From an uncultured Spirochaetaceae bacterium (GTDB lineage Bacteria > Spirochaetota > Spirochaetia > Sphaerochaetales > Sphaerochaetaceae), in the NCBI GenBank assembly GCA_944389075.1, contig CALXLA010000052.1, positions 1 to 59,216 on the forward strand: 59,216 nucleotides of DNA. The letters run 5' to 3'. How positions within the stretch are numbered: position 1 is the first letter of the stretch; each line of letters starts with the position of its first letter. The notes beneath the pieces were generated by a model. That model saw only the letters and a program-made list of their open reading frames with translations. It did not search any database and was not told where the DNA came from. This document shows positions 50,924 to 52,135 of this stretch, in pieces. The position numbers and the translations under genes were made by a program.

Positions 50924-50960
50924 ACATGCCTCCTAAGGCATTTTATTGCTGTTTTGTGGT

Positions 50961-50989
50961 TTGTCATAGACCCGAGCTTGTGATACTAT
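50961..50989 (+). promoter_or_regulatory. Promoter candidate for the corA transcript
   Basis: TTGTCA (50961-50966), a 17-base spacer and TACTAT (50984-50989). Transcription would start near 50996, giving a leader of about 115 bases that contains the 26-codon ORF. Confidence 0.55.
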
Positions 50990-51011
50990 TCATAAGGATA
51001 AGGAGTACAGC

Positions 51012-51092
51012 ATGGACGAAGGCGGTAGTATAAAACCTTTACCTAGAAAGAATAACTTTTTGAAAGCCTTCGGATGTGCATATAAGGTCTGA
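51012..51092 (+). CDS. 26-residue leader peptide upstream of corA
   Basis: An ATG at 51012 with AAGGAG 7 bases upstream opens 26 codons ending in TGA at 51090-51092. The peptide starts MDEGGSIKPLPRKNNF. Two Asp/Glu residues at the start followed by PLPRK recall the MgtL leader peptide of enterobacterial mgtA (acidic and proline-containing), and corA in Salmonella also has a leader ORF (corL). Its last codons form one arm of a 12-bp hairpin. The ORF ends 17 bases before the corA ATG. The peptide itself need not have a function; the act of translating it may be the signal. Too short to be certain. Confidence 0.5.
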   Translation: MDEGGSIKPLPRKNNFLKAFGCAYKV

Positions 51093-51108
51093 AGGCTTGG
51101 GAGAGCCT
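51064..51108 (+). promoter_or_regulatory. Mutually exclusive hairpins in the corA leader
   Basis: Hairpin A: 51064-51075 pairs with 51087-51098 (12 bp, two G.U) around an 11-base loop. Hairpin B: AGGCT (51093-51097) pairs with AGCCT (51104-51108) around TGGGAG, which contains the corA ribosome binding site. AGGCT takes part in both, so they cannot coexist. A ribosome on the leader ORF would cover the left arm of A. Confidence 0.55.
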
Positions 51109-51109
51109 G

Positions 51110-52135
51110 ATGATTGCAAAAAGAACTGATTTATCCCCAATGCAGCAGTTCACATGGATTGATGCCAGGGAGCTTGATAAGGATGATATTTCGATTTTGA
51201 CAGATGAATTCATGATTTCATCTGAGCTTCTTGCTGATATCATGGATGCCGACGAGCAGAGCAGAATAGAAAAGGAAGATGAATATACTGTCATCATCTG
51301 CCGTCTGCCTTCTGCCGAGGAAGATGATGAGAAACCATTGGAACGCACTTCGATACCTTTAGGTATCGTGCTTTTCCCTGATAAGGTGATCACGATCTGC
51401 CGTGGCGACAGCGTCGTAATCGATGATTTTGCACGCCATCGTTTCAGACAGTGCCCTGTCGAGACAAAGGAGGGCTTTGTCATATCCATACTCGGACGGG
51501 CAGCTCTTGTGTATATAAGGCTCCTGAAATACATAAACAGGCAGAAGGATATCGTTGAGGAACAGCTTCATAAGTCGATCATGAACTATGAGCTCATACA
51601 GCTTCTGCAGATACAGAAGTCGCTTGTATATCTCACTACGGGCCTCACTGATAACCAGCTGCTTCTGGAGAAGCTTCAGAAGACTCCGCTATTCCACCTC
51701 AATAACGATGATGAGCGTGAGTTCCTTGAAGATTCCATTACGGATAACAAGCAGGCTATTGCCATGGCCAATATCTATTCGGATATTCTTACGGGAACGA
51801 TGGATGCCTTCGCTTCTGTCATCGGCAACAATATGAACCTGATCATGAAGAGGCTGACTGTCATATCGCTCAGCCTCATGTTCCCGACCTTCATTACCGG
51901 ATTCTTCGGAATGAATGTTGATCTTCCTCTTGTCGGCAGGCCGTTTGCCTGGCTTATCCTGCTTGGACTCTGCGCGCTTGCGGCAATCATAGGGTCCTGG
52001 CTTATTTCCGACAGGCAGAGCCGGTCGCTGATCCGGGCCAATCTTGGAGAGAAGCGCAAGAGAGGCAAGGATGAGCGCACGCCTTCTGAAGTCAAGTATC
52101 TAAGGAGGAAGAAGGAAGTCCTGGAAGGTGACTGA
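51110..52135 (+). CDS. corA: CorA-family divalent metal transporter
   Basis: This 341-residue protein forms a pentameric inner-membrane channel for Mg2+ (or Co2+/Ni2+) in its family. The long cytoplasmic domain (residues 1-275) includes acidic stretches such as DIMDADEQSR and ERTSIPLGIVLFPDKV. Two C-terminal helices follow, the first ending in FFGMNVDLPL, which contains the GMN selectivity motif. A basic tail (KRKRGKDER-like) closes the protein. The ribosome binding site is GGGAG, located in the loop of a possible hairpin. The stop codon abuts the convergent methyltransferase stop. Confidence 0.93.
   Translation: MIAKRTDLSPMQQFTWIDARELDKDDISILTDEFMISSELLADIMDADEQSRIEKEDEYTVIICRLPSAEEDDEKPLERTSIPLGIVLFPDKVITICRGDSVVIDDFARHRFRQCPVETKEGFVISILGRAALVYIRLLKYINRQKDIVEEQLHKSIMNYELIQLLQIQKSLVYLTTGLTDNQLLLEKLQKTPLFHLNNDDEREFLEDSITDNKQAIAMANIYSDILTGTMDAFASVIGNNMNLIMKRLTVISLSLMFPTFITGFFGMNVDLPLVGRPFAWLILLGLCALAAIIGSWLISDRQSRSLIRANLGEKRKRGKDERTPSEVKYLRRKKEVLEGD

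Follow-up and report, generated by a model that had tools for sequence, protein, structure and literature searches.

CorA is regarded as constitutive in some bacteria, and the question raised by the present locus is whether, and in which direction, a spirochaete controls this Mg2+ transporter through a short leader. The window, i.e. the whole stretch of 59,216 nucleotides analysed herein, carries a corA gene that is preceded by a short open reading frame (ORF) and by RNA structures around the corA ribosome binding site (RBS). A sequence-only reading of this stretch had proposed an MgtL-like leader peptide and a translation-coupled switch of two competing hairpins in a spirochaete-like organism, and had left the direction of control unclear. 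The analysis of this leader, its relatives and its computed folding is reported below.

Results

Source genome and transcription of the leader

The spirochaete host that had been suggested was borne out, since the genus of the window is that of Candidatus Ornithospirochaeta, a group of gut spirochaetes. The position of CorA is shared by G033, which belongs to this genus, and JADIMT010000022, named Ca. O. stercoripullorum. A single CorA was found in the assembly. Neither MgtE nor an MgtA-type ATPase was found above the cut-off in this assembly (95% complete), and CorA may therefore be the main Mg2+ importer of the source genome. The gene for bL31 is present in the genome.

When the sequence of the window was checked, the AAGGAG motif, the leader ORF and the hairpins were all located at the coordinates first given for them (Table 1). 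The candidate promoter matches the consensus at 9 of 12 positions and has TG ahead of the second hexamer. Because TTGTCA-17-TACTAT with its extended -10 lies upstream, the leader-corA transcript most likely starts just before the leader, approximately 12-16 nt upstream of its ATG, and a start downstream of 51092, which the sequence-only reading had counted against its own proposal, is unlikely since the predicted promoter sits at 50961. In congeners, the region ahead of the leader repeatedly contains a TGTGNTANNAT-like motif. In the curated list of 118 leaders that was used for all cross-family counts, TGnTAnnnT lies no more than 110 nt upstream of 83 leaders, and an SD-like motif precedes 115. 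Elsewhere in the genome, pattern matches to the leader motif did not exceed the control level, the leader peptide matched nothing in Pfam or NCBIfam, and the leader RNA matched nothing in Rfam.

Table 1. Positions of the leader, its RNA regions and corA in the window
Feature	Position	Strand	Remarks
Putative sigma-70-type promoter of the leader-corA transcript	50961..50989	+	TTGTCA-17-TACTAT, extended -10 TG
Shine-Dalgarno region of the leader ORF (AAGGAG/AGGAG)	51001..51006	+	Sequence
Leader peptide ORF	51012..51092	+	ATG 51012 to TGA 51092, 26 codons, encodes MDEGGSIKPLPRKNNFLKAFGCAYKV
Region 1, CGAAGGC, within leader codons 2-4	51017..51023	+	Pairs with region 2
Region 2, left arm AAGCCTTCGGAT, 3' part of the leader ORF	51064..51075	+	Pairs with region 1 or region 3
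Region 3, GTCTGAAGGCTT	51087..51098	+	Right arm of 2:3; 51093-51097 is the left arm of 3:4
corA Shine-Dalgarno GGGAG, in the loop of hairpin 3:4	51099..51103	+	Sequence
Region 4, AGCCT 51104-51108 and GATT 51112-51115	51104..51115	+	Pairs with region 3 and with GGTC 51086-51089
corA, CorA-type Mg2+ transporter, 341 aa, controlled gene	51110..52135	+	PF01544, E 3.1e-53

Conservation of the leader peptide

Conservation of the ORF in relatives had been set beforehand as a test of the proposal, and the ORF proved to be present upstream of corA in 42 of 42 distinct congener loci, i.e. beyond chance, throughout the family, and in most of the other Spirochaetia families sampled. Among the 42 congener sequences, the codons for M, D, D/E, P, L and P show zero differences at the first and second positions, and the third positions of the five non-Met conserved codons differ in 18-49% of congener pairs. 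Since the variation is confined to third positions, these results argue for protein-level selection on the N-terminus of the leader. The C-terminal part and the length vary, ranging from 14 to 28 codons in congeners.

In the wider family, the Sphaerochaeta leaders (MSTVDDGGSINPLPR) follow the pattern MS(T/S/V)(V/L/S)D[DE]GGS(I/T)[NTI]PLP, and other genera carry MSDDSGSPLP, VKRQSEEANPHPDS, MSTSDDGGSIRYRP and others. Most of the other Spirochaetia families with this CorA have leaders such as MDSDPGS.., MSDPDGGS.., MPDPDS.., MDPDPDS.. and MDETPGS.., and an acidic leader was absent from about a dozen of the 40 upstream regions sampled in these other families. Exactly two acidic residues were observed in codons 2-8 of 111 of the 118 leaders. 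The PLP motif has been lost in several genera (RYRP, PHP), and thus the sensor is not one fixed sequence.

Three further observations concern these upstream regions. For the serine that follows the acidic pair (51027-51029 in the window), 94 of 115 leaders from many families use AGT, compared with only 22 of the 205 serines further along the same leaders, which points to a constraint at the codon or RNA level. In some leaders of family f24 (L161, L162, L167 and L168), the acidic ORF (MDSDPGS...) crosses the corA start out of frame with no stop before it, so that complete translation of the leader would pass over the corA start. In relatives of this CorA from Clostridiaceae metagenome-assembled genomes (L061-L065), the acidic leader is absent, and in several of them corA is preceded by a hairpin of the GATGCAAG...CTTGCATC type with a T-run behind it, resembling an intrinsic terminator or attenuator.

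Four RNA regions and their exclusive pairings

The two mutually exclusive hairpins around the corA RBS that had been described were recovered at their positions. Hairpin 2:3 joins 51064-51075 with 51087-51098 through 12 pairs, including G-U, with a computed stability of -19.2 kcal/mol. Hairpin 3:4 joins AGGCT 51093-51097 with AGCCT 51104-51108 and holds GGGAG in a six-base loop; it is extended over the corA start by the pairing of GGTC 51086-51089 with GATT 51112-51115, the latter including the last base of the corA start codon, to a total of -10.7 kcal/mol. Both hairpins require bases 51093-51097. A third pairing was also observed, in which CGAAGGC 51017-51023 meets GCCTTCG 51066-51072 (hairpin 1:2, -24.0 kcal/mol with neighbouring pairs), and the GAAGGC in the right arm of 2:3 repeats the sequence of leader codons 3-4. 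Because codons 2-4 thus compete for the same left arm, the plain two-hairpin reading was dropped in favour of four regions. In the minimum free energy (MFE) fold of the whole leader, with no ribosome, 1:2 and 3:4 are formed and the large hairpin is absent; with region 1 covered, the MFE fold usually contains 2:3. In the folding model, the corA leader is a four-region set in which 1:2 with 3:4 sequesters the corA SD and start, and 2:3 frees both. A pseudoknot between the pyrimidine-rich loop of 2:3 and the SD was also considered, and was dropped because it is not kept in the closest relatives of the window.

Covarying stems in relatives had been named as a check, and covariation was observed for one of the two hairpins. 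Among 23 distinct MDEGGS-clade sequences, five pairs of helix 2:3 are changed on both sides, in 22 such cells, a level that was reached by 0 of 500 shuffles and that collapses when the helix is slid. Helix 1:2 is paired in 93.8% of cells in the 23 congeners of this clade and is mostly invariant. Helix 3:4 is paired in 78% of cells with an invariant core, and it is short in this clade, with 3-5 core pairs and a variable outer stem; since no covariation beyond shuffles was observed for it, the case for 3:4 in the MDEGGS clade is one of conservation. In the MDDGSYPLP clade, the helix sequences differ and the layout is equal, for example CCGTCAG/CTGACGG in L030 versus CCGTTAG/CTAGCGG in L031 for 2:3, and CATGCC/GGCATG for 3:4. 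Consensus folding recovered the structure in part only, namely pairing of the leader TCCTCC with the corA SD for Sphaerochaeta leaders and hairpin 3:4 for those of g26. The TCCTCC at the end of the leader ORF in Sphaerochaeta (L098-L113) can pair with the corA SD GGAGGA in 81 of 84 cells; this is an extra, direct sequestration in Sphaerochaeta that is not seen in the genus of the window.

Computed opening of the corA RBS

The energy required to open the RBS was computed for the free RNA (S0), for the RNA with region 1 covered as a stand-in for a ribosome positioned at the leader start (S1), and for S1 with the region 2 segment dinucleotide-shuffled. The opening energy was taken from the SD to the start codon, with the profile beginning at -11/-12; a profile beginning at -15 overlapped the right arm of 2:3, blurred the MDEGGS clade and was rejected. 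The mean unpaired probability of the SD alone was also replaced, since in the MDEGGS clade the SD is a loop segment of 3:4 that remains unpaired, which makes this measure misleading there. All energies are predictions for isolated RNA at 37 C in which cotranscriptional folding and pseudoknots are ignored.

In congeners, opening the RBS cost a median of 7.8 kcal/mol for the free RNA and 5.1 kcal/mol with region 1 covered; shuffling of region 2 in the latter state raised the median to 10.4 kcal/mol (paired Wilcoxon p 9e-13, uncorrected for relatedness). Shuffling of region 2 closed the RBS in 85 of 88 family leaders, i.e. the native value was lower than the shuffled mean. The shuffled mean was higher in 25 of 25 genera or families, a per-group count that is safer than the pooled p-value, in which relatedness is uncorrected. 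The value with region 1 covered was lower than that of the free RNA in 78 of 88 family leaders, with S1 not below S0 in the other 10, and the gain in the window itself is modest (approximately 2 kcal/mol). Outside the family, the difference between S0 and S1 was weak (14 of 23 leaders), and region 2 still opened the RBS relative to shuffles in 19 of 23. When 36 genes of the window were treated alike as a control, the median difference was -0.2, and corA alone reached p<=0.05. In these computations, once region 1 is covered, the presence of region 2 specifically makes the corA RBS cheaper to open.

Other genes of the window also have costly RBSs in the same computation. The divergent gene for a PLP-dependent lyase (start 50923, minus strand) has its SD AGGAGG inside a 6-bp hairpin, ATGCCT-TAGG-AGGCAT (50926-50941), and its computed cost of 14.4 kcal/mol is among the highest in the window. 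Two adjacent minus-strand genes (starts 6061 and 7099) have unusually closed RBSs (17.1 and 16.1 kcal/mol), far exceeding their own shuffled controls.

Discussion

Herein, we propose that the corA leader is a four-region attenuator acting at the level of translation, which is read by the ribosome on a short acidic leader peptide and is switched on at low Mg2+, and we consider this reading probable. Low cytoplasmic Mg2+ would cause ribosomes that have made the acidic/proline N-terminus to turn unstable or pause, as for MgtL and MgtQ. Such early pausing or abortion would leave region 1 covered and region 2 unreached, so that 2:3 could form and CorA would be made. Under sufficient Mg2+, the leader would be finished, region 2 or the RBS would be covered, 3:4 could form, and CorA synthesis would fall; in the window, a ribosome finishing the leader would sit on the corA RBS itself and leave it off. 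If the leader were untranslated, 1:2 with 3:4 would be expected to keep corA low. Since a ribosome that covers hairpin 3:4 would cover the RBS too, both routes of the terminating ribosome would lead to the off state. On the other hand, the on state would need repeated initiation or pausing, because a true drop-off frees region 1 again. By analogy with these leaders, we infer that the signal sensed is Mg2+, and induction of corA when Mg2+ is low would be sensible for an importer in a genome where MgtE and an MgtA-type ATPase were not found.

The earlier proposal of a switch thus stands in that it is predicted to be linked to translation and built of exclusive hairpins, but it comprises four regions instead of two hairpins, and it is family-wide and mostly class-wide rather than local. 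A ribosome at the leader stop would indeed also cover the second hairpin, as had been noted, yet the direction can be predicted, namely on after an early pause and off when the leader is finished.

The switch logic is known from Salmonella mgtQ, an ORF of 8 codons with Asp2 and Glu5 that controls mgtB translation via 1:2 with 3:4 versus 2:3 (Choi et al. 2021, PMC8092293). This model is backed by disrupting and compensatory changes; in an attenuator of this type, the acidic residues reduce translation of the leader and increase that of the downstream gene, an effect opposed by ribosomal protein L31 (PMC8092293). In both systems, a short ORF encodes two acidic residues close to the N-terminus and contains region 1, the RBS of an Mg2+ transporter gene is trapped in 3:4, the choice lies between 1:2 with 3:4 and 2:3 (computed here), and control is exerted at translation (predicted here). 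The published stabilities of -16.4 (2:3) and -12.26 (3:4) for mgtQ-mgtB (PMC8092293) resemble the -19.2 and -10.7 of the window. In contrast, mgtQ lies between mgtC and mgtB within an operon, upstream of a P-type ATPase gene, whereas the spirochaete leader is longer than its 8 codons, occupies the 5' end of the corA mRNA with a putative promoter of its own, and has region 2 in or just after the end of the ORF; it belongs to another phylum, and a sequence relation is not established.

Nascent chains that begin with acidic and proline residues destabilise the ribosome, an effect that is stronger at low Mg2+ and when L31 is missing, and this property controls mgtA via MgtL, a leader known from E. 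coli and Salmonella (PMC11282234, describing Chadani et al. 2017; PMC11552253). The likeness to MgtL suggested by the sequence-only reading was supported when E. coli MgtL was set against MDEGGSIKPLPRK of the window: both have N-terminal acidic/proline residues followed by P-L-P-R, exclusive RNA structures, and an Mg2+ transporter gene downstream. Exact counterparts of the D-P repeats of the MgtL EPDP type are found in other families (MDPDPDS in L165), and the window has DEGGS..PLPR. MgtL works by way of Rho, at the level of transcription termination, and PhoP is a further regulator of mgtA. The spirochaete leader is not a member of the MgtL type, because the gene downstream is corA instead of an mgtA-type ATPase gene and the structures contain the RBS; the similarity is short, and the shared PLPR may represent convergence. 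CorL of Salmonella and E. coli is likened to the spirochaete leader by position and description, common descent not being established: it is a short ORF upstream of corA with exclusive leader structures, and leader translation and corA expression are expected to be inverse, although it acts through Rho and has few acidic or proline residues (PMC11552253). In erm- and trp-type attenuators, the position of the ribosome on a leader ORF also selects between exclusive hairpins, but the signal differs, being macrolide stalling for erm and charged tRNA for trp.

Several other explanations of the leader were weighed. The same peptide and hairpins might report translation capacity (EF-P, prolyl-tRNA, ABC-F factors, antibiotics or polyamines) instead of Mg2+, consistent with the P-x-P behind the acidic pair in most family leaders, the PLP that is constant in 42 of 42 congeners, and the easing by EttA of pausing on the acidic residues of MgtL (PMC11282234). 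However, several genera and most other families have kept the two acidic residues with no P-x-P, and the target is an Mg2+ transporter, the same kind of target as that of comparable acidic leaders studied by experiment, and thus we regard this signal as unlikely. Transcription attenuation, in which leader translation sets the access of Rho and the RBS hairpins are secondary, would correspond to enterobacterial mgtL and corL (PMC11552253), and untranslated corA mRNA could be open to Rho. Nevertheless, one clade after another has the SD and start codon of corA within the competing hairpin, and an intrinsic terminator finds no counterpart either, since the leader has no hairpin with a T-run and T-runs near corA occur in only 4 of 42 congeners. 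Control through Rho is accordingly judged very unlikely herein, and control appears to be exerted at the RBS, as in Salmonella mgtQ-mgtB (PMC8092293), and not through Rho as proposed for enterobacterial mgtA and corA.

Simple translational coupling, in which a ribosome would complete the leader and reinitiate at corA without any sensing, might be suggested by the leader stop that lies only 17 nt from the corA start in the window. The spacing, however variable, covers 17-51 nt in congeners and approximately 23-75 nt elsewhere, and coupling would leave the conserved acidic N-terminus and regions 1 and 2 unexplained, which renders it highly improbable. Mg2+-binding riboswitches control Mg2+ transporters elsewhere, and the leader RNA is structured, so a riboswitch with an incidental ORF was also considered. 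The amino-acid sequence of the peptide N-terminus, however, is conserved, in contrast to the freely varying linkers, loops and C-terminal part, and no Rfam match was obtained for the window at the gathering threshold or for the leader loci at E<=1, the ykoK M-box and mgtA leader models included; this explanation is extremely improbable. The translational attenuator responding to Mg2+ is thus the reading that we retain.

No description of a spirochaete corA leader was found in the literature searched, which was mostly open-access, and the leader is in this sense undescribed. In the same literature, control by intrinsic ribosome destabilisation has been experimentally shown only in E. coli and Salmonella. 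We hypothesize, with even confidence for and against, that Mg2+ sensing via a ribosome-destabilising acidic nascent peptide is an old device of the Spirochaetia, which was established at corA close to the class root and whose readout helices have been rewritten many times, and that MgtL and MgtQ arose independently around the same property of the ribosome. If this is true, Mg2+-dependent ribosome stability would be a general cellular sensor and not an enterobacterial speciality, and the class-wide leader would supply dozens of natural variants with which ribosome-destabilising nascent sequences could be defined. Moreover, it would give the first attenuator model for Mg2+ supply in the spirochaete phylum, suggesting that corA, which is often called constitutive, is regulated.
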